Positions 5,172-32,562 of a stretch of DNA of 37,331 nucleotides are shown here, in pieces. Source of the DNA: Acidimicrobiales bacterium (GTDB lineage Bacteria > Actinomycetota > Acidimicrobiia > Acidimicrobiales > JAHEJN01). Location: NCBI GenBank assembly GCA_024638845.1, contig JAHEJN010000022.1, positions 4,878 to 42,208 on the forward strand. The letters are read 5' to 3'. The notes under the pieces are model-generated. The model did no database searches. It was not told the origin of the DNA and saw only the letters and a program-made list of their open reading frames with translations. Both the position numbers and the translations under genes were made by a program. Position 1 is the first letter of the stretch, and every line of letters starts with the position of its first letter.

Positions 5172-5267
5172 GGTCGGTCTCCTCCTCTCCCCATCTTGGC
5201 GCCATTCGCCCGACGATGTCGGCCTGCCGCGCCGAAACGGGTGTTCAGAGCTTGCCCATCGCTCCTG

Positions 5268-5273
5268 TAACAT
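5268..5273 (+). promoter_or_regulatory. Possible -10 box for the glycosidase gene
   Basis: TAACAT lies 35 bases before the ATG at 5309, in a locally AT-richer stretch between two divergent genes. It fits the actinobacterial TANNNT -10 pattern. No convincing -35 hexamer is visible at 17-18 bp. The only other gene-like signal in the 137-base gap is the ribosome site of the oxidoreductase. Confidence 0.3.
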
Positions 5274-5308
5274 CTTCAATTCACCCGGGATCGTGCCGAA
5301 GGGTTCCC

Positions 5309-6277
5309 ATGTCACTCCGCCTCGACGACCACTGGGTGTGGGACTTCTGGCTGGTCACCGACGAGGACGAGCACCATGTGTTCTTCCTCAAGGCACCCAA
5401 GGCCATCGGCGATCCCGAGGACCGACACTGGAACGTGTCGATCGGACATGCCGTCTCGACCGATCTCGCCTCGTGGAGCGTCGTCGCCGATGCGTTGTCG
5501 CCGTCTTCGTCGACGGCGTGGGACGACAAGTCGACCTGGACCGGCAGCATCATCGGACATCACGGCGGGTGGGTGATGCTCTACACGGGCACCTCGCACG
5601 CCGACGAGGGCCTCGTCCAGCGCGTCGGGCTGGCTACCTCGCAGGACCTGCATGAGTGGCAACGGGTCGCCGATCCGGTGCTGCTGACCGATCCGGAGCT
5701 CTACGAGACGCTCGCCCACGACATGTGGCACGACGAGGCGTGGCGCGATCCATGGCTGTTCCGCGATCCCGACGACGAACACGTGCACGTGTTCCTCACC
5801 GCTCGGGCGAACACGGGCGATCGCTACGACCGCGGCGTGATCGGTCACGCCCGATCTCGCGATCTGCTGACGTGGGAGGTCCTCCCTCCGATCACCGCCC
5901 CGCCCGGCTTCGGCCAGCTCGAGGTGCCCCAGCTCCTCGAGATGAACGGCCGGTGGTATCTCCTGTTCGCAAGTGACCTCGAGACCCAGAGTGCCGAGCG
6001 TCGAGCAACCGGTCCGGGAACGGGCACGTACTACATGGTCGGCGACTCGCCCTATGGCCCCTTCACCATGCTCGGCGACGGTGTGCTCGAAGCCGATGCC
6101 ACCGGCACCACCTATGCCGGCAAGATCCACCACACCGTCGATGGCGTCCCCTGGTTCCTGGCCTGGAATCGCGTGGCCGTCAACGGAGACTTCGTCGGCG
6201 ATCTCGCAGCACCACGCCGGGTCGAGATCGCCTCCGACGGCTCCCTCAGCATCGCAGTTGCGGCGTTCTCTCGATGA
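5309..6277 (+). CDS. GH32-like glycoside hydrolase
   Basis: A 322-residue protein with the landmarks of the five-bladed beta-propeller GH32 family (fructan- and sucrose-cleaving enzymes). The nucleophile region is WVWDFW with Asp12, the RDP transition-state motif is Arg146-Asp147-Pro148, and the acid/base region is Glu205-Val206-Pro207. There is no signal peptide, so it should act inside the cell on an imported beta-fructoside or related sugar. It is shorter than typical GH32 enzymes because it lacks the C-terminal beta-sandwich. An AAGGG site precedes ATG 5309. The stop overlaps the ATG of a small downstream frame. No sugar transporter lies nearby, so the substrate is open. Confidence 0.8.
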   Translation: MSLRLDDHWVWDFWLVTDEDEHHVFFLKAPKAIGDPEDRHWNVSIGHAVSTDLASWSVVADALSPSSSTAWDDKSTWTGSIIGHHGGWVMLYTGTSHADEGLVQRVGLATSQDLHEWQRVADPVLLTDPELYETLAHDMWHDEAWRDPWLFRDPDDEHVHVFLTARANTGDRYDRGVIGHARSRDLLTWEVLPPITAPPGFGQLEVPQLLEMNGRWYLLFASDLETQSAERRATGPGTGTYYMVGDSPYGPFTMLGDGVLEADATGTTYAGKIHHTVDGVPWFLAWNRVAVNGDFVGDLAAPRRVEIASDGSLSIAVAAFSR

Positions 6278-18294: not shown

Positions 18295-18702
18295 TTAGCT
18301 GCGGCGGGCGTCGATCTCCGCTCTGCGCCGCGCGGCGGCGGGAACGCCGGCGATGCCCCAATCGGTGGGTGGTACTTCGTTGATGCGCAGCCGGGTGCGT
18401 TCGACGGGCACGCCGACGATCTCGGCCACCAAGGTCGAGACCTGTTCGATGAGTGCCGTGTGCTGTTCGACCGGCCGGCCTTCGAGGAGGTCGAGCGTGA
18501 TGAACGGGGCCTGCTCGCCCGAGTCGGCGATGGGCACGCCACCGACGGCGAAGCTGTCGGCGGGGAGCTCGTGGACCTGGGTGCGGATGCGATCGATGGG
18601 CGACTCGGTGAGCTCGGCGAACAACGCGGCGGTGCGGGTGAGCAGCTCGCGCTTGGTGGCAGCATCGACGGGGCCGGCGAGATCGACGCGTAGGAACGGC
18701 AT
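18295..18702 (-). CDS. Fused (double-length) tautomerase superfamily protein
   Basis: A 135-residue protein starting MPFLRVDL, so Pro2 becomes the N-terminal catalytic proline after Met removal. It is about twice the length of 4-oxalocrotonate tautomerase and contains two beta-alpha-beta units. The first ends in RIRTQVHELPADSFAVGGVP and the second repeats the pattern as RTRLRINEVPPTDWGIAGVP. Only the first unit has an N-terminal proline, as in the fused members of the superfamily (cis-CaaD and malonate semialdehyde decarboxylase groups). Its start overlaps the SDR stop (TGATG), placing it in the aldolase/dehydrogenase operon, where isomerising an unsaturated keto acid is the likely job. Confidence 0.8.
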   Translation of the reverse strand: MPFLRVDLAGPVDAATKRELLTRTAALFAELTESPIDRIRTQVHELPADSFAVGGVPIADSGEQAPFITLDLLEGRPVEQHTALIEQVSTLVAEIVGVPVERTRLRINEVPPTDWGIAGVPAAARRRAEIDARRS

Positions 18703-19457
18703 CAGCCGATTCCTCGTCGGCGGCCGAGGTCGAGCGAGAGGGTTGCGCCGTGGAGCCCGGAAGCTTCTGGTGCCAATAGCAGCTCGACGGCCCACGCCAC
18801 CTCGTCGACGGTGGTGAGCCGACCCAGGGGCGAACCGGCTCGGTACTCGTCGAGCACCTGGTCGGCTGTCGTCTCGCCGCCTCGCCGATCGGCGATGCGT
18901 TGCGCGATGGCGGTCATGCGCGGCGATTCGACCGGGCCCGGTGCGATCAGATGCACGGTCACGCCGTCGGGACCGTAGCGGTCCGACAACGAGCGAACGA
19001 GGTTTCCGAGGGCGGCGTTGGTCATGCCCGCCAGAGGAGCGTTCGGGGTGGGCTCGAAGCCGTAGTGCCCGCCGAGAACCACGAGCCGCGACCCAGGTTC
19101 GAGATGGTCCTGCACGCCCCGGATGAGACGGAGGAGGCCGCCGATCTTGCCGTTCATGCCGGCCTCGAGCTCGTCGCCGGTGAGGGTGTCGATCGTGCCG
19201 CTGCCGGGCAGGCCGGCCGCCTGGACGGCGATGCGAACCGGCGCATCGCACGCCGCCGCGATGGTGTCGATCGCGCCGTCGGACTGGAGATCGGCGGCCA
19301 GGGGCACGATCTGTTCGTCACCGTCGGCCAGCGCCGCGAGCGCATCGGCCGAACGAGCGACGGCGATCACGCGTAGGCCGGCTGAGCGAAGACGGGCAAC
19401 GATCGCCGACCCGAGCGCGCCGGTTGCCCCGACGACCACGCCCAGCCCGGCGGTCAT
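18702..19457 (-). CDS. SDR-fold protein lacking the usual catalytic residues
   Basis: A 251-residue Rossmann protein of the short-chain dehydrogenase superfamily. The cofactor loop [13 protein letters not shown] (8-20) is intact and VARSAD suggests NADP binding. At the active site, however, the Tyr-x3-Lys position reads Ala143-Gly-Met-Thr-Asn147, and the preceding Ser position reads LGGHYG. The usual acid-base machinery is therefore missing. It may act by another mechanism, bind a nucleotide only, or use a displaced residue such as Tyr132. The gene overlaps the aldolase by four bases (ATGA) and the tautomerase by one, so it is made with the meta-pathway enzymes. Confidence 0.8.
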
Positions 19458-20506
19458 CCCGTCGGAGCAGGTTGGGTGGCGGCGGCCTTCTCGGCGGCGA
19501 GCTCGGCGGCGATGGAGATGATCTGGTCCTCCTGGCCACCGACGAGCTTGTGCTCACCGCACCGCATGAGGATGTCGGCGCCACGCACGTCGTAGTCGGC
19601 GGCCGCCCGGTAGGCGTGCTTGAGGAAGCTCGAGTACACGCCGGCATACCCCATCACCAGCGCCAGCCGATCGATCACGCATTCGCCGTCCATCACGGGA
19701 CGCACGACGTCTTCCGCGGCGTCCATCAGGGCCAGCACGTCGATGCCGGTGCGAATGCCGAGCCGGTCACACACCGCGGCGAACACCTCGTTGCGGGTGT
19801 TGCCCGCACCGGCGCCGAAGCCACGGGTCGAGCCGTCGATCTGGACGGCACCGGCCCGAACGGCCAGCACCGAGTTGGCCACCGCGATGCCGAGGTTGTC
19901 GTGACCGTGGAACCCCACCTGAGCCTCGCCGCCCACTTCGGCAACGACCGCGGCGACGCGTTCGGTGACGTCGTCCATGATCATGGCACCGGCCGAGTCG
20001 ACCACGTACGGGCACTGGCAACCGGCGTCGACCATGATGCGGGCCTGTTCGGCGAGCTTCTCCGGCGAGACGGTGTGGGCCATCATCAAGAATCCCACCG
20101 TCTCGAGCCCGAGCTCGCGGGCCAGACCGAAGTGCTGGATCGACACGTCGGCCTCGGTGCAGTGGGTGGCGACCCGTACGAGACCGACCCCGATGTCGAC
20201 GCAGGCGCGGATGTCGTCCTTGGTGCCGATGCCCGGGACCATGAGCGCCGCGATCTTCGCTTGCGTCGCGGTCTCGACAGCGGCGGCCATGAGCTCACGT
20301 TCGTCGACGAGGGAGCGGCCGTAGTTGTAGCTCGAACCGCCGAGGCCATCACCGTGGGTCACCTCGATGACGGGCATGCCCGCCGCATCGAGGGCGCCGA
20401 CGATCGAACGCACGTGTTCGACGGTGAACTGATGGCCCTTGGCGTGTGAGCCGTCGCGCAGGGCAGAGTCGGTCATGCGGATGTCGAGGGAGTCGGAGTA
20501 CGGCAT
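19454..20506 (-). CDS. dmpG: 4-hydroxy-2-oxovalerate aldolase
   Basis: A 350-residue class II aldolase of the DmpG/MhpE/BphI family that splits 4-hydroxy-2-oxovalerate into pyruvate and acetaldehyde. The N-terminal [13 protein letters not shown] carries the catalytic Arg and metal-binding Asp, and [15 protein letters not shown] carries the two metal-binding histidines. Length and the C-terminal communication domain are standard. The acetaldehyde dehydrogenase gene lies immediately upstream and overlaps by one base. In this family the two proteins form a complex that channels acetaldehyde between active sites. It completes the meta-cleavage route whose hydratase and decarboxylase lie in the operon at 23401-32562. 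Confidence 0.96.
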
Positions 20507-21411
20507 CAGTTGGCTCCCACGGTGGTGGTGGAGACGGTGTCGAGGTGTCGGGCGATCTGGTTGCCGACCTGGGTGGCGGCGGCGGTCATGATGTCGAGGT
20601 TGCCCGCATACGGCGGGAAGAAGTCGCCGGCGCCCTCGACCTCGACGAAGATCGCCACGCGATGGCTGCCGTCGGCGGTGACCGAGAACTGCGGCTCGAC
20701 GGTGGGCCTGTAGCCGGGAACGTAGCCCTGCACGGTGGCGACCACGTCGGCGATGGACGTGCGGATCGCGTCATGATCGGCATCGTCGGGGATCTCGCAG
20801 AAGATGGTGTCGCGCATGATGAGGGGCGGGTCGGCCGGGTTGAGGATGATGATCGCCTTCCCCTTGGCGACACCGCCGCACACCTCGATGGCCCGGCTGG
20901 TGGTGCGGGTGAACTCGTCGATGTTGGCCCGCGTGCCCGGACCGGCCGACACCGACGACACGGTGGCGACGATCTCGGCGTAGGGCACCGAAACGACCCG
21001 GCTCACGGCATACACCATCGGGATGGTGGCCTGGCCGCCGCAGGTGACCATGTTGACGTTCATGAGGTCGAGGTGCTCGGTGAGATTCACCGGGGGCACC
21101 ACATAGGGCCCGAGCGCAGCCGGGGTCAGATCGATGGCGCGAATGCCCGCCTCTTCGTACCGGGGTGCATTCTCGCGATGCACGTAGGCGCTGGTGGCCT
21201 CGAACACGAAGTCGGGGAGCTCGGGTCGGGCGAGCAGCCAGTCGACGCCCTCGTGGCTGGCTTCGAGACCGTGGCTGCGGGCCCGGGCCAGGCCAACGCT
21301 CTCGGGATCGACACCGACCATGTAGCGCGGTTCGATGTCGGCCGAGCTCAACAGCTTGTGGAGCAGATCGGTGCCGATGTTGCCCGAGCCGACGATGGCG
21401 GCGGTGCGCAT
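20506..21411 (-). CDS. dmpF: Acetaldehyde dehydrogenase, acylating
   Basis: A 301-residue enzyme converting acetaldehyde, CoA and NAD+ to acetyl-CoA and NADH. The NAD-binding start is [13 protein letters not shown], the catalytic cysteine lies in [14 protein letters not shown], and the sequence matches the DmpF/MhpF/BphJ family throughout. It is the first gene of the minus-strand operon with the aldolase, a degenerate SDR and a fused tautomerase, all joined by start/stop overlaps. An AGAGGA ribosome site lies 10-11 bases before the ATG. Expression is probably governed by the twin palindromes at 21485-21521. Confidence 0.96.
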
Positions 21412-21471
21412 GATGGGTGAGTCCTCTCGTGAGGCGAGATGGGCCGGACGACGTTGGCCGGCACCGCCCCA

Positions 21472-21477
21472 GTCTGG
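21472..21477 (-). promoter_or_regulatory. Likely -10 box of the acetaldehyde dehydrogenase operon
   Basis: On the minus strand CAGACT lies seven bases after the proximal palindrome of the twin operator, the same position held by TAGCGT at the 23401 promoter (eight bases). No TTGACA-like -35 is present at the right distance, as expected for an activator-dependent promoter. The assignment rests on this positional match, since CAGACT is a weak box. Confidence 0.4.
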
Positions 21478-21484
21478 CCGCCAT

Positions 21485-21521
21485 GTTCCGCCGAGCGGAA
21501 CATCTTCCCGTACTGCGGGAC
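21485..21521 (-). promoter_or_regulatory. Twin-palindrome operator, copy A (dmpF operon)
   Basis: GTTCCGCCGAGCGGAAC (21485-21501) is a perfect palindrome with 7-bp arms. TTCCCGTACTGCGGGAC (21505-21521) is a second, with 5-bp core arms. The centres are 20 bp apart, about two helical turns, with a 3-bp spacer. The same architecture recurs at 23343-23379. On the minus strand it occupies the -35 region of the dehydrogenase operon. For the plus-strand peptidase promoter it lies about 30 bp upstream of the -35 box. An IclR-family activator of aromatic catabolism is a reasonable guess for the binding protein. Confidence 0.65.
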
Positions 21522-21580: not shown

Positions 21581-21647
21581 CGCCGCAGTGGGCAAGCCCA
21601 TGCTGCATCGGCCCGATCGGTGCACCCGTCAGAAAGGCCCGTCCCGA

Positions 21648-23267
21648 ATGAGAGTCTCCAACCGCCGAGGTCTGCTCGGCGTCTTCGTCGCCATCGTGCT
21701 CCTGGTCGGCTTCCTGCCGACCGTGGCATCGGCGGCACCATCGAGCAGTGGTTGCGTGAACCGCAACCTGAACCAGATCGACAAGCTCCTGGAATGCGTC
21801 GACGCCGAAGACGTCTTCGTCCACCTCGATGCGTTCCAGGACATCGCCGACGCCAACGGCGGGACGCGAGCCTCGGGCACTCCCGGCTACGACGCATCGG
21901 CCGACTACGTCGCCGAGCTGCTCGGGGAAGCCGGCTTCATCGTCGAGCGCCAGGAGTTCAGCTTCAGCGTCTACACCGAGAACTCGAGCTCGCTCGACAT
22001 CGACGGCACGCCGATCCCGACGCAGTCGATGCAGTACTCCGGCTCGGACACGGTCGCCGACGGCAACGTGATCGCGGTCGATCTCGACCTCGGGCTCGGC
22101 AACTCCTCGACCTCGGGATGTGAGGCAGCGGACTTCGTCGGACCGGACTGGTCGGGCAGCGACGACATCGCGCTGATCCAGCGCGGCGCATGTGCCTTCG
22201 GTCTCAAGGCGACGAACGCCCAGGCCGCCGGCGCAGAGGCCGTGGTCATCTTCAACCAGGGCAACACCGCCGACCCAGACCGTCAGGACATCATTGGCGG
22301 CACGCTCGGCGCCGGCGTGGTCGGCACGCTCACGATCCCCGTCGTCGACGTCTCCTACTCCGACGGGTTGGCGATCGACGCTGCGGCGCCGAACACGGTC
22401 AGCGTGTCGGTCGACGCGACGACGGTCACGAACACGACCGAGAACATCATCGGTGATCTGCCGGGCGTCAACCCCGACAACGTCGCCATGTTCGGCGCCC
22501 ACCTCGATTCGGTCCAGGCGGGCCCGGGCGTCCAGGACAACGGGACTGGCTCGTCGACGATTCTCACCGTGGCACTGGCGCTGGCCGACAACAAGAAGTA
22601 CGTGCCACAGAACACGCTGCGCTTCGCGTGGTGGGGCGCCGAGGAGTCGGGCCTGATCGGCTCGGACAACTACGTCTTCGACCCCGTGTTCGGTCTGACC
22701 CAGGAGGAGTACGACGCGCTGGCGCTGTACCTCAACTTCGACATGGTCGGCTCGCCGAACTTCATCTACGGCGTCTACGACGCCGACGAGTCCACGTTCC
22801 CGGCGCCGGTGTTCATCCCGCCGGGCTCCGCGGCGCTCGAGGACCTGTTCGAGGCGTACTACAGCATCGAGGGCATCCCCTACGAGGACACCGAGTTCTC
22901 GGGTCGCTCCGATTACGACGCGTTCATCAGCGTCGGCATCCCGGCGAGCGGCCTGTTCACCGGTGCCGAGGGCATAAAGTCGCCCGAGCAGGAAGCGATC
23001 TGGGGCGGCACGGCGGGCGACCAGTACGACCCGTGCTACCACCTGGCCTGCGACACGGTCGACAACGTGAGCGTCGAGGCGGTCGAGGTCAACGTCGATG
23101 CGATCGCCTACGCGATCTACAACGTGGCCGCCACGACCGAAGCGGTCAACGGCGTCGTCGGCGTCGAGCCGAAGGGCATCACGCCCGACGAGGTCGTCTT
23201 CGACGGCCCGCAGGGCACCTTCCTCGGCGGCGGTGGCTTCACCGCCGGTGACACCGTCGTCGACTGA
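21648..23267 (+). CDS. Secreted M28 family metallopeptidase with PA domain
   Basis: A 539-residue exported aminopeptidase-like protein. Residues 1-27 are a signal peptide (MRVSNRRG, a hydrophobic core, then VASAAP). A PA domain (about 130-240) includes IALIQRGACAFGLKATNAQAAGAEAVV. The M28 catalytic domain has the expected zinc ligands and base in order: AHLDSV, QDNGTGSS, WGAEESGL, NFDMVG and, near the end, CYHLACDT. It should remove N-terminal residues from peptides outside the cell. ATG 21648, with AAAGG ten bases upstream, gives a normal signal peptide. A GTG at 21588 seven bases after a -10 box could add 20 residues. It ends at a strong terminator, so it is not part of the catabolic operon. 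Confidence 0.9.
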   Translation: MRVSNRRGLLGVFVAIVLLVGFLPTVASAAPSSSGCVNRNLNQIDKLLECVDAEDVFVHLDAFQDIADANGGTRASGTPGYDASADYVAELLGEAGFIVERQEFSFSVYTENSSSLDIDGTPIPTQSMQYSGSDTVADGNVIAVDLDLGLGNSSTSGCEAADFVGPDWSGSDDIALIQRGACAFGLKATNAQAAGAEAVVIFNQGNTADPDRQDIIGGTLGAGVVGTLTIPVVDVSYSDGLAIDAAAPNTVSVSVDATTVTNTTENIIGDLPGVNPDNVAMFGAHLDSVQAGPGVQDNGTGSSTILTVALALADNKKYVPQNTLRFAWWGAEESGLIGSDNYVFDPVFGLTQEEYDALALYLNFDMVGSPNFIYGVYDADESTFPAPVFIPPGSAALEDLFEAYYSIEGIPYEDTEFSGRSDYDAFISVGIPASGLFTGAEGIKSPEQEAIWGGTAGDQYDPCYHLACDTVDNVSVEAVEVNVDAIAYAIYNVAATTEAVNGVVGVEPKGITPDEVVFDGPQGTFLGGGGFTAGDTVVD

Positions 23268-23287
23268 CCGAAGCGGTTGATTCGATT

Positions 23288-23322
23288 GAGGGGCGCCCGA
23301 TCGGGCGCCCCTCACCGCTTTT
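23288..23322 (+). terminator. Rho-independent terminator after the M28 peptidase
   Basis: A perfect 26-bp inverted repeat (23288-23313) of GC-rich 13-base arms beginning GAGGGGCGCCC is followed by ACCGCTTTT. It lies 21 bases after the peptidase stop and about 80 bases before the next start, separating the peptidase from the dioxygenase operon. Confidence 0.85.
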
Positions 23323-23342: not shown

Positions 23343-23379
23343 GTCCCGCTCGACGGGACAGCTTCCCATCTTGCGGGAC
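23343..23379 (+). promoter_or_regulatory. Twin-palindrome operator, copy B (dioxygenase operon)
   Basis: GTCCCGCTCGACGGGAC (23343-23359) and TTCCCATCTTGCGGGAC (23363-23379) are two inverted repeats with centres 20 bp apart and a 3-bp spacer, the same geometry as copy A. The block CTTCCC, five variable bases, then GCGGGACGACTG is shared with the plus strand at 21504-21526. The proximal repeat covers the -35 position of the operon promoter and no -35 consensus is present, which suggests activation by the bound protein. Confidence 0.7.
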
Positions 23380-23387
23380 GACTGACG

Positions 23388-23393
23388 TAGCGT
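23388..23393 (+). promoter_or_regulatory. -10 box of the catabolic operon, leaderless start
   Basis: TAGCGT is followed by seven bases and then ATG 23401. The spacer CGCCGCC is nearly identical to that at the M28 promoter (CGCCGCA). The first dioxygenase has no ribosome site, in keeping with a leaderless message. Confidence 0.6.
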
Positions 23394-23400
23394 CGCCGCC

Positions 23401-24309
23401 ATGGGAGTTCTCCGGCTTTCTCACGTCGACATCAGCGCCCCCGACCTCGATCTCGCGGCTGCGTACTACACGCAGGTGATGGGGCTCGACATCAGCGATC
23501 GCACCGATGACCGCATCTTCTTCAAGTGCTGGGACGAGCGCGACCACCACTGCCTGGCCGTCCGCTACGACCCCCGGGTCGGCATCGATCGCTTCGCGTT
23601 CAAGGTCGAACACGAGGACGATCTCGACCGGTTCGAGAACGCCGTACAGGCCTACGGCCACGCCGTCGAGCGCATCAGCAAGGGCGAGGAGGTCGGTCAG
23701 GGCGAGAGCATCCGCTTCGCCACCCCCTCGGGTCACGAGATGGAGCTCGTCCACGACATCACCAAGGTCGGCGGACGGCTTCCGTTGGTGAACCCGTGGC
23801 CGGTGCCGCAGGGCCTGGTCGGCATCGCCCCTCCCCGCATCGACCATCTGCTCATCCACGCCGAGGAAGTCGGCGAGATGGTGCACTTCATGCAGACCTG
23901 CTTCGGGTTCTTCCTCACCGAGCAGGTGCTCAGTGGCGAAGGGCACCAGATGGGGGCCTTCCTCCAGCGCTCGGGTCGACCCCACGACATCGCGATCATC
24001 CAGGGTCCGAACGGGGCACTGCACCACTTCTCGTTCTGGCTCGACGACTGGGACCACGTGCGTCGAGCTGCCGACATCCTGGCCTACAACGCCATCAGCA
24101 TCGACATCGGCCCCACCCGCCACGGCATCACCCGGGGCAACACCATCTACTTCTTCGACCCCATGGGCACCCGGAACGAGGTCTTCACCGGCGGGTACCG
24201 GCCCGACCCGGATTTTCCGACCATCACCTGGACGGAAGACAATCTGGGTCGGGCCATCTTCTACTACGAGGGCAAGGACAACGGTCGCTTCCTGACGGTG
24301 CACACGTGA
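23401..24309 (+). CDS. Extradiol (catechol 2,3-) dioxygenase, class I, first copy
   Basis: A 302-residue two-domain VOC protein close in length to XylE (307). It should cleave a catechol next to the hydroxyls with O2, giving a 2-hydroxymuconic semialdehyde-type product. Iron ligands appear as His149 (RIDHLLIH), His208/209 (LHHFSFW) and Glu260 (NEVFTGGY). Second-sphere residues match XylE too: His195 in RPHDIA, His241 in TRHGITRG and Tyr250 in IYFFDP. It is the first gene of an operon that continues through the dikinase, Rieske enzyme and meta-pathway genes. Substrate preference is not readable. A second, roughly half-identical copy follows. Confidence 0.93.
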   Translation: MGVLRLSHVDISAPDLDLAAAYYTQVMGLDISDRTDDRIFFKCWDERDHHCLAVRYDPRVGIDRFAFKVEHEDDLDRFENAVQAYGHAVERISKGEEVGQGESIRFATPSGHEMELVHDITKVGGRLPLVNPWPVPQGLVGIAPPRIDHLLIHAEEVGEMVHFMQTCFGFFLTEQVLSGEGHQMGAFLQRSGRPHDIAIIQGPNGALHHFSFWLDDWDHVRRAADILAYNAISIDIGPTRHGITRGNTIYFFDPMGTRNEVFTGGYRPDPDFPTITWTEDNLGRAIFYYEGKDNGRFLTVHT

Positions 24310-24364: not shown

Positions 24365-25279
24365 ATGAGCGGCATCTTGCGGCTCTCGCACGCTGAGGTG
24401 CGGGTGCCCGACCTCGAGCTGGCGCTGGCCTATTACACGGAGGTCGTCGGCCTCATCGAGACCACCCGTGACGGTGATCGGGCCTTCCTCAAGGGGTGGG
24501 ACGAGCACCAGCACCATTCGCTCATCCTGAAGTCGGCGCCCACCTACGGGCTCGAGTCGCTCGGCTTCAAGGTGCACGAGGCATCCGACCTCGACGACCT
24601 CGCGGCCAAGATCGAGCAGGCCGGCATCGAGACCACCCGCCACGCAGCCGGTGACCTCGGCCCCGGCTCGGGCGACACCGTCCGCTTCCGCGCACCGAGC
24701 GGGCACACGGTCGACCTCGTCCACGGCATGGACCAGGTCGGCAACGCGATGCCGCTGCTCAACCCGCCCATCGGCCCCGACAACCTCACCGGCATGGCTC
24801 CGCCCCGGCTCGACCACATCTTCTTGATGGCCGAAGACGTCGATGGCGTCACCGACTTCTTCCGCGACGTGCTCGGCTTCCGCCTCACCGAACAGATCAT
24901 GAGCGACGACGGCTACCAGCTCGCCACCTTCCTCGAACGGTGCCACAGCACCCACGACATCGCCTTCCTCACCGGCCCCGACGGCGGCTTCCACCACGTG
25001 GCCTTCTGGGTCGACGACTGGAACGAGCTGCGCATGGGCGCCGACAAGTGCGCCTATCACGGGGTCACCGTCGACGCCGGCCCCACCCGTCATGGTGCCA
25101 CCCGCGGCTGTGGCCTCTACTTCTTCGACCCGGCCGGCAACCGCAACGAGCTGTACACCGGCGGCTACTGGTTCGACCCCGACGACGAACCCACCACCTG
25201 GACCGAAGCCGAGATGGGTCGGGCCATCTTCTACTACCAGGGCCAGCTCAACCCGGCCTTCATGACGGTGCATTCATGA
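24365..25279 (+). CDS. Extradiol (catechol 2,3-) dioxygenase, class I, second copy
   Basis: A 304-residue paralogue of the preceding enzyme, with the complete iron site: His151 (RLDHIFLM), His210/211 (FHHVAFW) and Glu262 (NELYTGGY). The second-sphere His197, His243 and Tyr252 are also kept. By eye the two copies agree at about half their positions; the C-terminal FFDP...GGY region is best conserved and the substrate-contact region differs (KCWDERDHH versus KGWDEHQHH). A 55-base spacer separates them. The pair probably handles two differently substituted catechols, or an inhibitory product of one copy is handled by the other. Confidence 0.93.
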   Translation: MSGILRLSHAEVRVPDLELALAYYTEVVGLIETTRDGDRAFLKGWDEHQHHSLILKSAPTYGLESLGFKVHEASDLDDLAAKIEQAGIETTRHAAGDLGPGSGDTVRFRAPSGHTVDLVHGMDQVGNAMPLLNPPIGPDNLTGMAPPRLDHIFLMAEDVDGVTDFFRDVLGFRLTEQIMSDDGYQLATFLERCHSTHDIAFLTGPDGGFHHVAFWVDDWNELRMGADKCAYHGVTVDAGPTRHGATRGCGLYFFDPAGNRNELYTGGYWFDPDDEPTTWTEAEMGRAIFYYQGQLNPAFMTVHS

Positions 25280-25325: not shown

Positions 25326-26399
25326 ATGAGTGCCTCGACCCCCACTCCCGGCAGCCGGCCCGAAGCCCGGGTCGACGCACCGCTCTATCTCGCCCGCTGG
25401 CGCGAGAAGGAGGCTGCGGCCCGCACCGGCGACGGCACCACCGATACCGACGACGATTCATCGCTGCCGCTCTACCTGCGTCAGTTCCGGGCCAAGGCCG
25501 CGGCCCCGGCGACCACGGCGCCCGAGACCGCGCTGTGGGAACGAGCGGGCCTGCCCACTCAGCGAGCGCTCACCGAAGACAGCCTCAACAAGGAGATCTC
25601 GGCCCCGCCCGAGGCCCGCCAGGTCCTGCACAACGACGTGTACCTCATCCGCCACGGCGAGACCCAGGGCTACTCCACCGACTCGGGCCTCACCCCGCAG
25701 GGTGCCTGGCAGGCTCACACCTACGGCCACACGATGGCCAAGCGCATCAAGAGCGGCGAGACCGTCGTGTTCCGCCATGCGGCCACGAACCGGGCCCGCG
25801 AGACGGCAGAGCACGTCCATCGTGGCCTGGTCGACGGGCTGGTGCAGTTCGAGAAGGACATCACCATCGTCGAGCCCGAGCCGATGCTCGAGTTCCGCAA
25901 CTTCCAGTTCGCCACGCCGGGCGGACTCAAGGACGTCACCGCGGCGTTCCGCGAGTTCTACGCCGTGCGCGAGGAGTACGAGCGCCGCCGCACCGGCGAT
26001 CGCCCGTTGTGGCTCGTGGAGATGGACCGGTTCTGGAGCACCCAACAGGGAGGTGGCGACCCGATTCGTCACTGGCTCACCATTCCCATGCTCCACTTCG
26101 AGCCGCCGAGCATGACGGTTCGCCGGTTCTGGGCCGGCATCAATCGTCTGGGCGACCAGTTCCCCGGCGCTCGCCTGGCCATCGCGACCCACTCGGGGTG
26201 CATCCGCGCCTTCGCCGTGGCCGCCCTCGGGTACGACCCGGGCGAGCCGTACAACACCGAGCACGTGCGGGTGAAGATCATGCAGGGTCGCGAGGAAGCG
26301 CTGGTCGGTTACCGAAATCGCATCCAGGAGACCCGCGTTCCCGACATCGACTGGCTGCCGCCATGGGCCATCGACGAGACTTGGGAGCCGACGAGCTGA
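25326..26399 (+). CDS. Histidine phosphatase superfamily protein with N-terminal repeat extension
   Basis: A 357-residue protein. The core (about 103-345) is a branch-1 histidine phosphatase: LIRHGETQG with His110 as the phospho-accepting residue, the downstream AATNRARETAEHV helix, and ATHSGCIRAF with His289. It carries a ~100-residue N-terminal extension, rich in Ala/Thr/Asp, with two copies of a short helix-like motif, PLYLARWREKEAAAR (19-33) and PLYLRQFRAKAAAPA (48-62). Placed directly before the dikinase genes, it is the best candidate to remove a phosphate from an aryl phosphate intermediate. It could instead clear phosphorylated side products. It has no signal peptide and is cytoplasmic. 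Confidence 0.85.
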   Translation: MSASTPTPGSRPEARVDAPLYLARWREKEAAARTGDGTTDTDDDSSLPLYLRQFRAKAAAPATTAPETALWERAGLPTQRALTEDSLNKEISAPPEARQVLHNDVYLIRHGETQGYSTDSGLTPQGAWQAHTYGHTMAKRIKSGETVVFRHAATNRARETAEHVHRGLVDGLVQFEKDITIVEPEPMLEFRNFQFATPGGLKDVTAAFREFYAVREEYERRRTGDRPLWLVEMDRFWSTQQGGGDPIRHWLTIPMLHFEPPSMTVRRFWAGINRLGDQFPGARLAIATHSGCIRAFAVAALGYDPGEPYNTEHVRVKIMQGREEALVGYRNRIQETRVPDIDWLPPWAIDETWEPTS

Positions 26400-26415
26400 T
26401 GGAAGGAGCGCGCGG

Positions 26416-27594
26416 ATGTGCAAACAGTGTCCCGTGGTCGATTGGGACGCCGCGTTCGCGACCATCGAGTCGTTCGGCGGAGTTCCCGCCGTTGGGGGAG
26501 TCATGAGTGATCTGATCGTCTGGTACGACCGGTACGACCGCGAGCAGAAACCACGGGTCGGCGGCAAGAACGCCAGCCTCGGCGAGCTGATGATGGCCGA
26601 CCTGCCGGTGCCACCGGGCTTCGCGGTGACCGTCGAGGCCTACCAGCAGATCTGGCGCAACAAGACCCTGGCCGACGCCGTGAACGCCGAGCTGCGGTCC
26701 ATCGACCACGGCGACGTCCGGGCCAATCGGGCCACCGCCGATCGCATCCGCGCCCTGATCGAGGCCGAGCCCATGGCGCCCGAGGTGGTCGAGGCGATCA
26801 CCGACAGCTACCAGGCGCTGTGCACGTTCTGCAATGTCGACGACCTTCCTGTTGCCGTCCGCTCCTCGGCCACCGCCGAAGACCTTCCCGACGCATCCTT
26901 CGCCGGTCAGCAGGACACGTACCTCTGGATCCACGGCGCCAACGCCGTGCTCGCCCACGTTCGCAAGTGCTGGTCGTCGCTGTTCACCGATCGGGCCATC
27001 GCCTATCGGCACCAGATGGGCTACCTGCACCACAACCTCTCCATGTCGGTCGGTGTGCAGAAGATGGTCGATCCGGTCTGCTCGGGGGTGGCGTTCACGC
27101 TGAACCCCACCAACGGTGATCGCAGCCAGGTGTGCATCGATGCGTCGTGGGGCCTGGGCGAGGCCGTGGTGTCGGGCGAGGTGACGCCCGACAACTTCCT
27201 GGTCGACAAGGTCATCAAGGAGATCGTGAGCCGCAAGATCTCCAACAAGCACATCGAGATGCGCCTCGGTGACGACGGGGAGGTCCACACCGTCGAGCTC
27301 GATCCCGTGCGGGCCAACCAGCCGTGCCTCTCCGACGACGACCTGCGCAACGTCGCCGCGCTCGCCCGTCGGGCCGAGAAGCACTACGGGTGTCCGCAGG
27401 ATGTCGAATGGGCCATCGACCGGCACCTGCCCGAAGGGTTCAACGTGCTGCTGTTGCAGAGCCGGCCCGAGACGGTGTGGTCACAGAAGCCCGTGTCGCC
27501 GATCGCCAGCGCCAAGGACCCGATGGCGTCGATCGTGTCGACGCTGTTGGCGCCGATGCACACCAAGTCCGAAGAGAAAACAGAAGAAACATGA
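26416..27594 (+). CDS. ATP-grasp subunit of a split dikinase (PPDK N-terminal type)
   Basis: A 392-residue protein made almost only of the PEP synthase/PPDK nucleotide-binding domain. Motifs are VGGKNASLGE (48-57), the Gly/Ser loop PVAVRSSATAEDLP followed by FAGQQDTYL (145-170), SGVAFTLNP (223-231), WGLGEAVVSG (245-254) and the closing LLLQSRPETVW (345-355). In such enzymes this domain binds ATP and passes its beta-phosphate to a histidine on another domain, releasing AMP and phosphate. That histidine is on the next gene's product. An AAGGAG site seven bases upstream favours ATG 26416; ATG 26506, with GGGGGAG close by, would give 362 residues. The N-terminal CKQC stretch is then an extra. Confidence 0.9.
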   Translation: MCKQCPVVDWDAAFATIESFGGVPAVGGVMSDLIVWYDRYDREQKPRVGGKNASLGELMMADLPVPPGFAVTVEAYQQIWRNKTLADAVNAELRSIDHGDVRANRATADRIRALIEAEPMAPEVVEAITDSYQALCTFCNVDDLPVAVRSSATAEDLPDASFAGQQDTYLWIHGANAVLAHVRKCWSSLFTDRAIAYRHQMGYLHHNLSMSVGVQKMVDPVCSGVAFTLNPTNGDRSQVCIDASWGLGEAVVSGEVTPDNFLVDKVIKEIVSRKISNKHIEMRLGDDGEVHTVELDPVRANQPCLSDDDLRNVAALARRAEKHYGCPQDVEWAIDRHLPEGFNVLLLQSRPETVWSQKPVSPIASAKDPMASIVSTLLAPMHTKSEEKTEET

Positions 27595-27613
27595 ATTCCA
27601 GGGGGAGAACCAC

Positions 27614-29428
27614 ATGACCGATCGCCGCTTTCCGAGCCCGTTCGAGGTCGAGCCGCCCGAGGGCGACATCGACGGGTGGGAAGAGCTCTACCCGTACTCG
27701 GTGACCTTCAGCGAGGGCCGCCGCGAGTACGAAGAGGCCCGTTTCTGGTTCCAGGACTCCATGCACTGGGGCTGGGCCATGACGCCGTGGGACTCGGCCC
27801 ACCTCGAGTACGCCATCGCGTCTCTCAGTCAGTTCAACAGTCGTCACTACCGCATTCCCCCGGCCGACGGCATCGACTTCCGCGTGCTCTACGGCTATCC
27901 CTACTTCTCACCGGTGGGCGTCGACCCCGAGAAGATCGAGGCCCGGGTGCCCGAGTTCATGGAGCGGGCGGGCCACTACTTCATGAACTGGGACGACCTC
28001 TACGCCAACTGGTTGGTGAAGGTGAAGGAGAACATCGACGCCATCGACGCCATCGACTTCTCGCCCCTCCCCGAGATGGAGGATCTCGAAGTCATCACCA
28101 GCGGACGAGGCATCGGGACGGGCTGGGACATCCAGCAGCAGTACCACCAGTTCAAAGACCTGTGTCTCAAGGTGTGGCAGTACCACTTCGAGTTCCTCAA
28201 CCTCGGCTACGCCGCCTACCTCGACTACTTCGGATTCTGCAAACAGGCGTGGCCGACCATTCCCGATCTGGCCATCGCCCGCATGGTGGCCGGCGTCGAG
28301 GTCGACCTGTTCAAGCCCAACGAGAAGCTGAAGGATCTCGCCCACCTGGCCGTCGACTCGGGCCTGGCACGTGTCTTCGACAGCCCCGACGACGTCGCGG
28401 GCATCGCGGCCGCGCTGGGCTCGAGTGACAAGGGCAAGGCGTGGCAGGCGGCGTGGGACGATGCCGCCGACCCCTGGTTCAACTTCAGCTCCGGTACCGG
28501 CTTCTACTACTTCGACAAGACCTGGCTCGACTACCCCGAGATCCCCTACGCGTTCGTGCGCGACTACATCACCAAGATCGAAGACGGCGTCGACATCAGC
28601 CGCCCCATCGAGCAGGTGATCGCCGAGCGCGACCGCATCGTCGCCGAGTACACCGACCTGTTGCTCACCGAGGAGGACAAGGAGACCTTCGCCGGCAAGC
28701 TCGGTCTGGCTCGCACGGTGTTCCCCTACGTCGAGAACCACAACTTCTACATCGAGCACTGGACCATGAGCCGCTTCTGGCGCAAGCTCCGCGAGCTCGG
28801 TGCGGTGTTGGCCAAGGAAGGCTTCGTCTCGGATCCACAGGATGTCGTCTACTTCCGCCGCGACGAGCTCGACGAGGTCCTGTGGGACATCTACTCGGCA
28901 TGGGCGGTCAACGCCCCGAGTGCCGGCACCACGTACTGGCCGCCCAAGATCGAACAGCGCAAGGCGTGGATCGACAGCTTCAGCAAGTGGAAGGCGCCCA
29001 AGGCGCTCGGTGAGCCACCCGAGGTCATCACCGAGCCGTTCACCATCATGTTGTGGGGCATCACCTCCGACTCGGTGAACATGTGGCTCGGCTCCGACGA
29101 CGAGGGCGCCGGCATCACCGGCATGTCGGCATCGCCGGGAGTGGCCGAGGGTCCGGCCCGGCTCGTGTTCAACGCCGACGACATCGGCGACGTGCTCGAC
29201 GGCGAGATCCTGGTGGCTCCGATCACCGCGCCCAGCTGGGCGCCGGTGTTCCCCAAGATCAAGGCCTGTGTCACCGACATCGGCGGGATGATGAGCCATG
29301 CGGCCATCGTCTGCCGTGAATACGGCGTGCCCGCGGTGACCGGCACCGGTTTCGGTACCGACAAGATCAGCAACGGCGACATGATCCGGGTCGACGGCTC
29401 GGCCGGCACCGTCGAGATCTTGAGCTGA
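27614..29428 (+). CDS. Acceptor and phosphohistidine subunit of a split dikinase (phenylphosphate synthase/Rph-like)
   Basis: A 604-residue protein with AGGGGGAG just upstream of its ATG. The last ~100 residues (about 505-604) are the swiveling phosphohistidine domain: GMSASPGVAEGPARLV, TDIGGMMSHAAIVCREYGVPAV with catalytic His562, and a closing GDMIRVDGSAGTVEIL. The first ~500 residues are rich in Trp, Tyr and Phe and do not resemble the PEP/pyruvate TIM barrel. They hold the place occupied by the acceptor domain in rifampin phosphotransferase and in the large subunit of phenylphosphate synthase. With the preceding ATP-grasp subunit it should phosphorylate a small molecule, giving AMP and phosphate. 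In this operon a phenolic acceptor is the simplest idea. It lacks the C-terminal barrel needed for PEP synthesis. Confidence 0.88.
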   Translation: MTDRRFPSPFEVEPPEGDIDGWEELYPYSVTFSEGRREYEEARFWFQDSMHWGWAMTPWDSAHLEYAIASLSQFNSRHYRIPPADGIDFRVLYGYPYFSPVGVDPEKIEARVPEFMERAGHYFMNWDDLYANWLVKVKENIDAIDAIDFSPLPEMEDLEVITSGRGIGTGWDIQQQYHQFKDLCLKVWQYHFEFLNLGYAAYLDYFGFCKQAWPTIPDLAIARMVAGVEVDLFKPNEKLKDLAHLAVDSGLARVFDSPDDVAGIAAALGSSDKGKAWQAAWDDAADPWFNFSSGTGFYYFDKTWLDYPEIPYAFVRDYITKIEDGVDISRPIEQVIAERDRIVAEYTDLLLTEEDKETFAGKLGLARTVFPYVENHNFYIEHWTMSRFWRKLRELGAVLAKEGFVSDPQDVVYFRRDELDEVLWDIYSAWAVNAPSAGTTYWPPKIEQRKAWIDSFSKWKAPKALGEPPEVITEPFTIMLWGITSDSVNMWLGSDDEGAGITGMSASPGVAEGPARLVFNADDIGDVLDGEILVAPITAPSWAPVFPKIKACVTDIGGMMSHAAIVCREYGVPAVTGTGFGTDKISNGDMIRVDGSAGTVEILS

Positions 29429-29457
29429 ACGAACGAGAACGACGAGGAGGTCCCCCG

Positions 29458-30732
29458 ATGATGACCCAGGAACAGAACGACGAGCTCACCCAGGTAGGCC
29501 CCGGTACACCGATGGGCGACGTCCTTCGTCACTACTGGTACCCGGTGTGCTTCGAGCGCGAGCTCGAGGAGTTCCCGGTGAGGGGCGTGCGCCTGCTCGG
29601 CGAGAACTTTGCCGTGTTCAAGACCCCCGACGGCCAGTACGGCATCGTCGACGAGCGGTGTCCGCACCGCGGCGCCTCGCTCGTGTACGGCATCGTCGAG
29701 GACGGTGGTCTGCGCTGTGGCTATCACGGCTGGAAGTTCGACAACGACGGCACCTGCGTGGAGATCCTCGCCGAGCCCGACTCGTCGCCCGCGTTCCGCG
29801 AGAAGGTGTGTGTCCGGGCCGGACGGGCCCAGGCGTTGGGCGGGTTGATCTTCGCCTACATCGGTGAGAGCCCGGCTCCTGAGCTGCCCCGGTACGACGG
29901 CTTCGTCATGGACGGCGTACGCGACATCGGCCATTCCATGCTGCCGTGCAGCTGGCTCCAGATCATGGAGAACGCCGTCGATCCGTATCACGTCGAGGCG
30001 TTGCACGGGAACTACTTCGCCTTCCTGGCCGAGTGGCAGGGCTTCGACATGCCCTCGTCGTTCAAGAACAAGCACGTGAAGGTGGCCTTCGACCCGTTCG
30101 AGCACGGCATCATCAAGCGTCGCCTCCTGGTGGGCCAGAGCGAGGATGACGACGACTGGAAGATCGGTCACCCGCTGGTCTTCCCGTACCAGATGTGGGT
30201 GGGCGGCAACGGGGTGTTCCAGATGCAGATCCGCGTTCCCGTCGACGACGAGACCACCTGGATGCTCTTCTACACCGTGCACGCACCCGATGGCGCCGAG
30301 CCGGCCGAGCAGATGTACCCGGTCGACTACGAGTACGAGTGGCTCGACGCCAAGGGCAACCACATCGTCGACTACATCGAGGGTCAGGACATCATGGCCT
30401 GGGTCACCCAGGGCAAGGTGGCCGATCGCACCACCGAGAACATCACCAAGAGCGACATGGGGGTGGTGGCCCTGCGCCGCATGTTCCGTGACTCGATCGA
30501 AGCCGTGAAGGAGGGCCGCGACCCGGTGGCGGTGGTACGCCAACCGCACGACATCATCACGTTGCCCCTCGAGCGGTTCAAGTTCGGGCGGGGCCCGGAG
30601 TTCGCGACCGACTGGATCAACCGCGGCTCGATGCGGTACTCGCCCCAGGCCGACGACTTGAAGAAACTGCACATCAACGCGGCCGCTGCGGTGGCCGGTC
30701 GCGGCATCGCCGAAACGGCGCCCGGTCAGTGA
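29458..30732 (+). CDS. Rieske non-heme iron oxygenase, alpha subunit
   Basis: A 424-residue oxygenase. The Rieske cluster site is CPHRG plus CGYHGW (Cys68, His70, Cys87, His90). The mononuclear iron site is NAVDPYHVEALHG with Asp175, His178 and His183. The sequence style (MTQEQNDELTQVGPGTPMGDVLRHYWYPV) is that of the phthalate 4,5-dioxygenase-like alpha-only branch, whose members hydroxylate rings or remove O-methyl groups. GAGGAGG lies upstream of ATG 29458. No beta subunit, ferredoxin or reductase is in the window, so electrons must come from elsewhere. The position after the dikinase suggests it acts on, or near, the phosphorylated aromatic. Confidence 0.93.
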   Translation: MMTQEQNDELTQVGPGTPMGDVLRHYWYPVCFERELEEFPVRGVRLLGENFAVFKTPDGQYGIVDERCPHRGASLVYGIVEDGGLRCGYHGWKFDNDGTCVEILAEPDSSPAFREKVCVRAGRAQALGGLIFAYIGESPAPELPRYDGFVMDGVRDIGHSMLPCSWLQIMENAVDPYHVEALHGNYFAFLAEWQGFDMPSSFKNKHVKVAFDPFEHGIIKRRLLVGQSEDDDDWKIGHPLVFPYQMWVGGNGVFQMQIRVPVDDETTWMLFYTVHAPDGAEPAEQMYPVDYEYEWLDAKGNHIVDYIEGQDIMAWVTQGKVADRTTENITKSDMGVVALRRMFRDSIEAVKEGRDPVAVVRQPHDIITLPLERFKFGRGPEFATDWINRGSMRYSPQADDLKKLHINAAAAVAGRGIAETAPGQ

Positions 30733-31508
30733 CCGTCGACCTGGCTGGCTGGGCCGGCTATCTGCAGGCCGCGGTCGACAACCGGCGCGAGGTACAGGGC
30801 ATCGAAGCCCAGATCGGGTCGCTCTCGATCGACGACGCGTATGCCATCCAGGCGGCGCTCATCGAGAATCGGTTGGCGGCGGGCGACTCGCTGGCCGGCG
30901 CCAAGCTCGGGCTGACCTCGAAGGCCAAGCAAGAACAGATGGGCGTCGATGAACCGGCCTACGGCTGGGTGCCCGCATCGACGGTGCTCGGTGACGACGC
31001 CGAGGTGGTGCTCGGAGAGCTGATCCATCCCCGGGTCGAGCCCGAGTTCGTGTTCCTGATGGGCCAGGCGTTGGCCGGCGCCGATGCGACCGCCGAGCAG
31101 GTGCTCGATGCAACCGAAAGCGTCGTCGGTGGCATCGAGGTGATCGATTCACGCTACGAGGCGTTCAAGTTCACGCTGCCCGATGTGATCGCCGACAACA
31201 CGTCGGCGGCGCGGGTTGCCATCGGCGCCTACGGCGTCGGTCCGCGCGAGGTCGACCTTCGCGCCGTCACCTGCACGTTCACGATCGACGATGAAGACGT
31301 CGGCTCGGCAACAGGGGAGGCGCTCCTCGGCGATCCGGCCGAATGCGTCGCCATGCTCGTGCGCCATCTCGCCAAGTACGACCGCGGGCTCGAAGCGGGC
31401 TGGCTGGTGATGGCGGGAGCACCGCTCGGCGCCCAACCCCTGTCGGTCGGTACGGTCGCCACGGCCAGCTACAGCCACTTCGGTTCGGTTACCGTGCGGG
31501 GCGTCTAG
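30729..31508 (+). CDS. dmpH: 4-oxalocrotonate decarboxylase (FAH/hydratase superfamily)
   Basis: A 259-residue protein. GAKLGLTSKAKQEQMGVDEPAYGWV and the metal-site region HPRVEPEFVF and GGIEVIDSRYEAF are characteristic of the decarboxylase branch (XylI/DmpH) more than the hydratase branch. It would convert 2-oxo-3-hexenedioate to 2-hydroxypenta-2,4-dienoate and CO2. The GTG start overlaps the Rieske stop (GTGA). In known pathways it forms a complex with the hydratase, here two genes downstream. The two are paralogues, so assignment to decarboxylase rather than hydratase rests on these motifs. Confidence 0.85.
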   Translation: MTVDLAGWAGYLQAAVDNRREVQGIEAQIGSLSIDDAYAIQAALIENRLAAGDSLAGAKLGLTSKAKQEQMGVDEPAYGWVPASTVLGDDAEVVLGELIHPRVEPEFVFLMGQALAGADATAEQVLDATESVVGGIEVIDSRYEAFKFTLPDVIADNTSAARVAIGAYGVGPREVDLRAVTCTFTIDDEDVGSATGEALLGDPAECVAMLVRHLAKYDRGLEAGWLVMAGAPLGAQPLSVGTVATASYSHFGSVTVRGV

Positions 31509-31537: not shown

Positions 31538-31771
31538 ATGCCACTGGTCAACGTGCACATGGGCAAAGGCCGCTCCGTCGACGACAAGCGGGCGATGATG
31601 GACGCGATCACCGAGGCGATCGTCGACTCGATCGGCGCGCCGCGCGACTCGGTGCGCGTGTGGATCACCGAGATGGACGACACCGACTTCATGGCCGGCG
31701 GAGAGCTGCTCGCCGACAAGCGGGTCCGGCTGGCGGCCGAAGCGCACGCCGCCCCCGAGGATCGGGTGTGA
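31538..31771 (+). CDS. dmpI: 4-oxalocrotonate tautomerase
   Basis: A 77-residue protein starting MPLVNVHMGKGRS. After Met removal, Pro1, Arg11, Arg39 and Phe50 fall exactly on the four key active-site positions of classical 4-oxalocrotonate tautomerase. A C-terminal tail of about 15 residues beyond the usual 62 is Ala-rich. It isomerises 2-hydroxymuconate to 2-oxo-3-hexenedioate. The ATG follows an ACAGGA ribosome site, and the stop overlaps the GTG of the hydratase gene. Its presence implies that ring-fission product passes through the dehydrogenase branch, though no such dehydrogenase gene is seen here. Confidence 0.94.
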   Translation: MPLVNVHMGKGRSVDDKRAMMDAITEAIVDSIGAPRDSVRVWITEMDDTDFMAGGELLADKRVRLAAEAHAAPEDRV

Positions 31772-32562
31772 CCGACGCCGCGCTGCTGCAGCAGGCGGCC
31801 GATGCGCTCTGGGAGGCCGAGTCGTCGGGGGTGCCGACCGGCCCGATCCGCGACGTCGTGGGAACCGCGACCGACATCGACACGGGCTACGCCGTGCAAC
31901 AGATCAACACCGATCGCCACGTCGTCGCCGGTCGCCGCATCAGCGGCCGCAAGATCGGGGTGACCTCCAAGGCGGTTCAGCAACAGATCGGCGTCGATCA
32001 GCCCGACTTCGGCACGCTGTTCGTCGACACCGAATACGGCGATGGCGTCGACATCGCAGCCTCACGCTTGATCCAGCCCAAGGCCGAGGCCGAAGTGGCT
32101 CTGGTGCTCGAACACGATCTCAATCGCGCGCCGCACGGCTTCGCCGAGATCGTTCGGGCTGTCGGCTTCGCCTTGCCGTCGATCGAGGTGGTCGACAGTC
32201 GGATCATCGACTGGGACATTCGCATCGTCGACACAGTGGCCGACAATGCCAGCTGTGGCCTGTACGTCGTGGGGTCGAAACCGGTGCCGTTGTCGGCTGT
32301 CGACCTCCGCACGGTCCCCATGTCGATGTCGGTGAACGGATCCGAGGTCTCCTCGGGCGTGGGTGCAGCTTGCCTCGGCAACCCGCTGCATGCGGCCCGC
32401 TGGCTGGCCGACACGTTGTGCGAGCGCGGTATTCCGCTCTGCGCCGGCGACGTGTTGATGACCGGAGCGCTCGGGCCCATGACCGTCCTCGAAACCGGCG
32501 ACGAGGTCGTCGCCACCTTCGGCGACCTCGGAACGGTGACCACCCGTCTTGTTGCGGAGTGA
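31768..32562 (+). CDS. dmpE: 2-oxopent-4-enoate hydratase
   Basis: A 264-residue protein of the DmpE/XylJ/MhpD branch. It has ISGRKIGVTSKAVQQQIGVDQPDFGTLF, the metal-binding KAEAEVALVLEHDL and PSIEVVDSRI segments, and DNASCGLYVVG. It adds water to 2-hydroxypenta-2,4-dienoate, giving 4-hydroxy-2-oxovalerate, the substrate of the aldolase encoded at 19454-20506. The GTG start overlaps the tautomerase stop (GTGA), showing tight coupling. It is the last clear catabolic gene of the operon. Confidence 0.93.
   Translation: MTDAALLQQAADALWEAESSGVPTGPIRDVVGTATDIDTGYAVQQINTDRHVVAGRRISGRKIGVTSKAVQQQIGVDQPDFGTLFVDTEYGDGVDIAASRLIQPKAEAEVALVLEHDLNRAPHGFAEIVRAVGFALPSIEVVDSRIIDWDIRIVDTVADNASCGLYVVGSKPVPLSAVDLRTVPMSMSVNGSEVSSGVGAACLGNPLHAARWLADTLCERGIPLCAGDVLMTGALGPMTVLETGDEVVATFGDLGTVTTRLVAE

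Follow-up and report, generated by a model that had tools for sequence, protein, structure and literature searches.

The 37,331-nucleotide stretch of DNA analysed here (the window) carries the two halves of a catechol meta-cleavage pathway on opposite strands with a peptidase gene between them, and a twin palindrome (site A) before the leftward half raises the question of which genes it controls, through which regulator, and in which sense. We describe it as a real and conserved predicted operator of the IclR family, which very probably switches both halves of the catechol pathway together. Tandem IclR operators are a well-known kind of control, encountered here in a little-studied bacterial group. 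The result is a testable regulator-operator pair for the meta-cleavage cluster of several actinobacterial groups, with a regulon that has been split up, operators that have been kept nonetheless, and a pathway under control that is little studied. In the open-access literature, we found no description of catechol 2,3-dioxygenases coupled with a two-component aromatic kinase and a Rieske oxygenase. Since the operator survives gene rearrangement, it can be used for assigning scattered genes to the pathway and for seeking the inducer.

Genes of the window

Features of the window are listed in Table 1. The genes at 25326-30732 encode a histidine-phosphatase-family protein, a PEP-synthase-like kinase of two components and a Rieske oxygenase; the operon combines them with two catechol 2,3-dioxygenases, an arrangement kept in many relatives. 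This operon, behind the second twin palindrome (site B), appears to encode an aerobic route from a phenol to catechol that is initiated by a kinase. A strong hairpin after the peptidase gene probably keeps peptidase transcription apart from site B; it was not reported by a consensus terminator scan. At the left of the window, a large minus-strand gene (1680-5315) has POR, TPP_enzyme_C and DUF6537 domains, and we take it to be indolepyruvate-ferredoxin-oxidoreductase-like. By their domain make-up, the two kinase genes of the window resemble the aromatic two-component kinases HpeHI, CreHI and PpsAB (PMC12167813).

Table 1. Coordinates of predicted genes, operators and promoter elements in the window
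Feature	Position	Strand	Details
Short-chain dehydrogenase	18702..19457	-	overlaps aldolase end; probable operon member
4-hydroxy-2-oxovalerate aldolase	19454..20506	-	TIGR03217, 487 bits
Acetaldehyde dehydrogenase (acetylating), AcDH	20506..21411	-	first operon gene; TIGR03215, 432 bits
Predicted -10 box CAGACT, aldolase/dehydrogenase operon	21471..21476	-	8 bp from site A; box and gap same in sister genome G248
Site A, palindrome nearest AcDH promoter	21485..21501	-	GTTCCGC-CGA-GCGGAAC; extends to 21483-21503
Site A, distal palindrome	21505..21521	-	5/7 arm pairs
M28 peptidase, between the two halves	21588..23267	+	signal-peptide-like start near 21649
Strong 12-bp hairpin, after peptidase and before site B	23287..23314	+	-32.6 kcal/mol, z -4.6, weak T run
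Site B, distal palindrome, before dioxygenase operon	23343..23359	+
Site B, proximal palindrome	23363..23379	+
Predicted -10 box TAGCGT, dioxygenase operon	23388..23393	+	8 bp from site B; 7 nt before ATG
Catechol 2,3-dioxygenase 1 (C23O_1)	23401..24309	+	TIGR03211, 364 bits
Catechol 2,3-dioxygenase 2 (C23O_2)	24365..25279	+
Histidine-phosphatase-family protein	25326..26399	+	dioxygenase operon
ATP-grasp (PPDK_N) subunit	26416..27594	+	predicted two-component aromatic kinase
Open frame with PEP-utiliser swivel-domain subunit	27269..29428	+	real start inside frame
Rieske oxygenase	29458..30732	+
FAA-hydrolase-family decarboxylase/hydratase	30729..31508	+	meta pathway
2-keto-4-pentenoate hydratase-like protein	31660..32562	+

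Three operators in one genome

Site A (21485-21521) reads GTTCCGCCGAGCGGAAC-atc-TTCCCGTACTGCGGGAC in a 17+3+17 bp layout, which confirms the twin inverted repeats with centres 20 bp apart that an initial annotation had reported from the sequence. Its first palindrome pairs at 7/7 arm positions, or 9/9 when extended, and its second at 5/7. The window has 10 twin palindromes with at least 11/14 pairs, compared with an expectation of 5.6; for at least 12/14 the expectation is 0.63. On symmetry alone site A is thus marginal, and these statistics were not taken as proof of it. Its significance comes from its sequence: when all 37-mers of the window were compared on both strands, the closest to site A was site B, with 27/37 identical positions, and the runner-up had 22. 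Site B, GTCCCGCTCGACGGGAC-agc-TTCCCATCTTGCGGGAC, lies at 23343-23379 before the dioxygenase operon. Its spacer is as long as that of site A, and its -10 box is likewise 8 bp away. The initial annotation had likened the design of site A to that of the dioxygenase-operon site in repeat length, spacer and -10 distance, and the likeness stands.

In the whole genome of 3,698,026 bases in 220 contigs (3.7 Mb), two IUPAC scans allowing up to 3 mismatches found the 17+3+17 pattern at three places only: site A, site B, and a place on a different contig (C213:10319-10355) in an IclR-family gene's promoter, all with palindrome centres 20 bp apart. In the 247 other genomes of the order, a relaxed pattern allowing 2 mismatches at most matched 7 times, in 7 genomes. 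For cross-validation, a profile was built by sequence only from the dioxygenase promoters of 14 relatives and contained nothing from this genome; it took the 14 of 40 distinct C23O sites that have an 8-bp gap between operator and -10 box, leaving out L062 (7-bp gap) and keeping L091, though its hexamer TAGAAC is not TANNNT. With 150 of 1160 first-pass candidates scored, this profile recovered site B (E 6.3e-10), site A (2.1e-6) and the site of the IclR gene (5.5e-5), and its six matches with E up to 10 fell in these three places only, each on both strands. When applied to 20 further genomes, it gave strong matches (E 2.5e-5 or better) in the regulator carriers G213, G248, G249, G250, G251 and G252, and weak ones (E above 0.001) outside these six. 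Since all of the six but G250 supplied promoters to the profile, the matches of those five are expected by construction.

Regulator

Directly behind the third operator comes the best HTH_IclR match of the genome, a gene with a GTG start (C213:10376-11167; L016:10376) whose product, P0001, is an IclR-family protein. Both of its domains score above cut-off, HTH_IclR (PF09339) at the N-terminus with 64 bits and IclR_C (PF01614) at the C-terminus with 164 bits, and it is homologous to the solved IclR proteins 1mkm (E 7e-33) and TtgV (2xrn/2xro, E 2.6e-16). An IclR-family gene with the operator in its own promoter, as autoregulation would have it, is what the initial annotation had proposed to look for; P0001 is such a gene, and in G248, the closest genome examined, the operator likewise lies in the promoter of the regulator gene. 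The promoter of P0001 has a TAGGGT box, 7 bp from the operator (8 bp in G248), and the GTG start follows 7 nt after the box. Behind the IclR gene (L016:11170-12722) lie genes for a Rieske ferredoxin and a Meth_synt_2-like protein. The ferredoxin gene directly follows the IclR gene here and also comes after it in G248, and its product may be a partner of the Rieske oxygenase of the window.

Conservation in relatives

Matches to P0001 with E 1e-40 or better are present in 15/248 genomes of the order, this one included, and nine of them are orthologues with 57-68% identity. The upstream regions of orthologues contain palindromes of the same kind, in the stretch that separates the IclR gene from a divergently oriented one with a start matching that of the window's dioxygenase. 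We then widened the comparison to named genomes scanned with an alignment of eight IclR proteins, which yielded 227 confirmed relatives; the loci of the best 80 were used. In most of these best 80 of 227 loci, the IclR gene adjoins, and is divergent from, a C23O_1-C23O_2-phosphatase-kinase-Rieske series, and in many of them hydratase, AcDH and aldolase genes lie downstream of it. One IclR gene is thus central to both pathway halves elsewhere. Record titles place the gene cluster in Acidimicrobiia, Nitriliruptoraceae, Nanopelagicales and a Nocardioides.

A matrix made from the three sites of the present genome only gave 54 twin matches of at least 15 bits in the 991,711 bp of the best 80 of 227 loci. 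Fifty of the 54 lie at most 300 bp upstream of C23O_1 or the IclR gene, and 47 of the 80 loci have a twin match near one of these two genes. By coordinates, the remaining four are also within clusters: those of L059 and L062 at the hydratase, directly behind the IclR gene, that of L064 between C23O_1 and the IclR gene, and that of L110 near a contig end, upstream of the IclR gene. Spacing is equally constrained. In 72 C23O upstream regions, 45 site pairs are at distance 20, and every other distance occurs at most twice; loci with no C23O_1, or truncated by the end of a contig, were left out of this count. In a separate step, L127 was dropped as too short. A TANNNT hexamer starts 7-10 bp after the operator in 39/40 distinct C23O twins, compared with 3.7% in shuffled tails, with sites below 15 bits and exact operator repeats dropped and the gene-nearest twin kept where a locus had several. 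The gap is mostly 8 bp in acidimicrobial loci and 9-10 bp in Nanopelagicales-type loci. In the L063-L087 group (e.g. L072), the distal palindrome is nearly perfect and the proximal one has become a single half-site, TGTGAC, in the same place; by eye, TGTGAC stands 8 bp before the -10 box in ten loci (L065, L067, L070-L073, L076, L079, L085 and L087).

These comparisons bear on two alternatives. That site A consists of chance palindromes in G+C-rich DNA would agree with the marginal symmetry noted above; set against the rarity of the pattern genome-wide, its link to a regulator gene and its conservation across species, this reading was already very unlikely, and we give it next to no weight. 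Another IclR-type protein of the same genome might bind the operator in place of P0001, as there are 12 HTH_IclR matches in the genome, 11 of them above cut-off. P0001 is the only one of these with the operator in front of its own gene, most relatives among the best 80 of 227 loci have its orthologue next to the same operons, and at E 1e-40 or better the genome has a single match, so that a different binding protein is highly improbable. We therefore hold to P0001 as the predicted regulator. Sequence and comparison together establish that the predicted operator exists, is conserved, keeps a fixed distance from the -10 box and is linked to P0001, and we consider it highly probable that operator, P0001 as regulator and a single regulon hold jointly. 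The initial annotation had proposed that both halves of the meta pathway form one regulon although a peptidase gene separates them, and this is well supported by the operator in the present genome, in the clusters of relatives and in G248.

Gene served by site A

The position of site A between genes that point away from each other leaves two directions in which it could act. In G248, the AcDH is 85% identical to that of the window and is preceded by GTTCTCGGATGCGGGAC-gct-GTTCCCCAGCGTGGGAC, then 8 bp, CAGACT, 6 bp and ATG, and the 19-kb stretch around it contains no M28 match. The same operator and CAGACT box before AcDH, with no peptidase gene beside them, assign site A to the minus-strand aldolase/dehydrogenase operon; the M28 peptidase, absent beside AcDH in G248, is not needed for the regulon. 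The conserved box also corrects the initial annotation by one base: it had placed the -10 box at 21472-21477, 7 bases from the palindromes, and CAGACT as conserved in G248 is 8 bp away (Table 1).

Site A might instead serve the rightward peptidase gene, or both directions, rather than mainly the minus-strand operon. The relatives' profile scores it at 29.7 bits on the plus strand (profile positions 1-43) against 15.8 on the minus strand, and sites A and B have GCGGGACGACTG in common at their right edge. On the minus strand, however, site A is identical to the IclR gene's own site at 31/37 positions, and a -10 box at the conserved distance exists on that side only. The plus strand has no TANNNT 7-10 bp after site A, and by eye a TAGGGT preceded by TTGAGA appears only further right, outside the conserved geometry. 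With G248 keeping operator and CAGACT before AcDH in a locus lacking M28, we judge a peptidase operator unlikely, to a degree that leaves it little room, despite the opposing strand score.

Of 14 AcDH genes in 20 searched genomes, 10 lie behind FAA-hydrolase-family or Rieske genes of the pathway, on the same strand, and can do without a separate operator. The other four are apart from the cluster: the one in G248 has the twin operator, that in G213 one good palindrome (14.6 bits), that in G251 weak matches only, and that in G138 none. Counting the present genome, AcDH is thus apart from the cluster in five genomes; that it has no operator before it in G138 and only a weak one in G251 speaks against our reading.

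Promoter geometry and sign of regulation

No -35 consensus was found by the promoter scan at either the site A or the site B promoter, as the initial annotation had also noted. Among the relatives, the closest approach to a -35 element by eye is TTCCCA at a spacer of 19 bp, which occurs in the 8-bp group and does not recur consistently from group to group. CAGACT is itself a poor -10 box with no -35. Given the predicted -10 boxes at 8 bp, one palindrome would fall at about -21 to -37 and the other at about -41 to -57, and on positions reckoned from these boxes the -35 position lies inside the operator at each of the three promoters, that of the regulator included. The shared activator suggested in the initial annotation is not borne out by this overlap, which fits repression at least as well.

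We propose that two dimers of P0001, forming a tetramer, would occupy both palindromes on one face of the DNA, two helical turns apart. At site A, the protein would sit directly upstream of the minus-strand CAGACT; it would also bind site B, before the dioxygenase-Rieske-kinase operon, and its own promoter, which presumably drives the Rieske ferredoxin gene as well. With one protein on three operators, three operons would respond together to one aromatic metabolite. By occupying about -57 to -21, and with it the -35 region, P0001 is expected to act as a repressor, and it would release the DNA once an aromatic inducer binds its C-terminal domain. Leaderless starts are predicted at site B, where TAGCGT stands 7 nt before the ATG, and probably also apply to the regulator gene. 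We lean towards repression relieved by inducer as the sign of regulation, because the operator lies across the -35 region and the promoter of P0001 itself is laid out almost alike; a geometry common to the three promoters points to a single sign for all of them.

The main competing possibility retains the same operator and regulator and makes the inducer-bound IclR protein an activator that recruits RNA polymerase to promoters with no -35. Activators rarely sit over the -35 position; with exceptions, their usual place is upstream of it. Many actinobacterial promoters lack a -35 element, so that its absence here is weak evidence for activation. The palindromes at site A lie over the -35 position and not upstream of it, the proximal dimer would be centred near -29, and activation would imply strong positive feedback on the regulator gene, whose promoter has near-identical geometry. 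Pointing the other way are the lack of a -35 consensus, a CAGACT box that is weak and conserved as such in G248, a gap to the -10 box fixed at 7-10 bp, and the existence of activators in the IclR family (PMC8222616). On balance we regard activation as possible, and as the less probable of the two signs. A narrower version is rather doubtful: the tetramer would replace the -35 element, leaving promoters with a -10 box only at a fixed 7-10 bp from a protein covering -21 to -57, and the inducer would be a phosphorylated aromatic compound made by the operon's kinase. If this were true, the regulon would report on the kinase-initiated aerobic route into catechol.

Comparison with known systems

P0001 is a homologue of TtgV (E 2.6e-16), which in PDB 2xro is bound to its operator DNA as a tetramer (PMC8222616); unlike P0001, TtgV controls efflux pumps, and effector and operator sequence differ. 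In gene arrangement, the locus resembles the satellite loci of the ARO microcompartment system, in which an IclR-type gene heads late meta-pathway genes in actinobacteria, and whose co-regulation with the main locus was left open by the authors (PMC10470539). In contrast to the window, the ARO system has a two-subunit dioxygenase and shell proteins, and the portions of PMC10470539 used here describe no operator for the satellite loci. No shell domain was found among the window genes scanned with Pfam. Elsewhere in the genome there are three microcompartment shell-domain matches (C149:42965-45588; L170-L172), but the relatives' profile, with 150 of 1160 first-pass candidates scored, placed no operator at these shell genes, and a microcompartment link was dropped.

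Closer in function are CatR of Rhodococcus erythropolis and PcaR of Corynebacterium glutamicum, which like P0001 are actinobacterial IclR regulators associated with aromatic degradation and have related palindromes (PMC8222616). Their palindromes, SWWGTACGCAGAGCGTACARM for CatR and GTTCGC-N3-GCGAAC for PcaR (Table 1 of PMC8222616), differ in sequence from site A, and they govern the utilization of catechol and of 4-hydroxybenzoate/protocatechuate, respectively (PMC8222616).

The nearest likeness is to the tandem operators of IclR group 1, with the consensus GKTYCRY-W3-4-RYGRAMC (Suvorova and Gelfand, 2021; PMC8222616). By eye, the first palindrome of site A agrees with this consensus at 14/14 arm positions and the second at 11/14; the centres differ in not being W3, that of the first palindrome being CGA. 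No regulon with the present gene set is named in the sections of PMC8222616 drawn on here, which do count meta-cleavage genes among the IclR-regulated sets. Tandem IclR sites with centres 18-22 bp apart are reported there for 94 orthologous groups, and site A, with 17-bp palindromes in a 7+3+7 layout and centres 20 bp apart, falls within that range. As with the group 1 tandem operators, the regulator gene has the same site, and the genes concerned belong to aromatic catabolism, the meta pathway included (PMC8222616).
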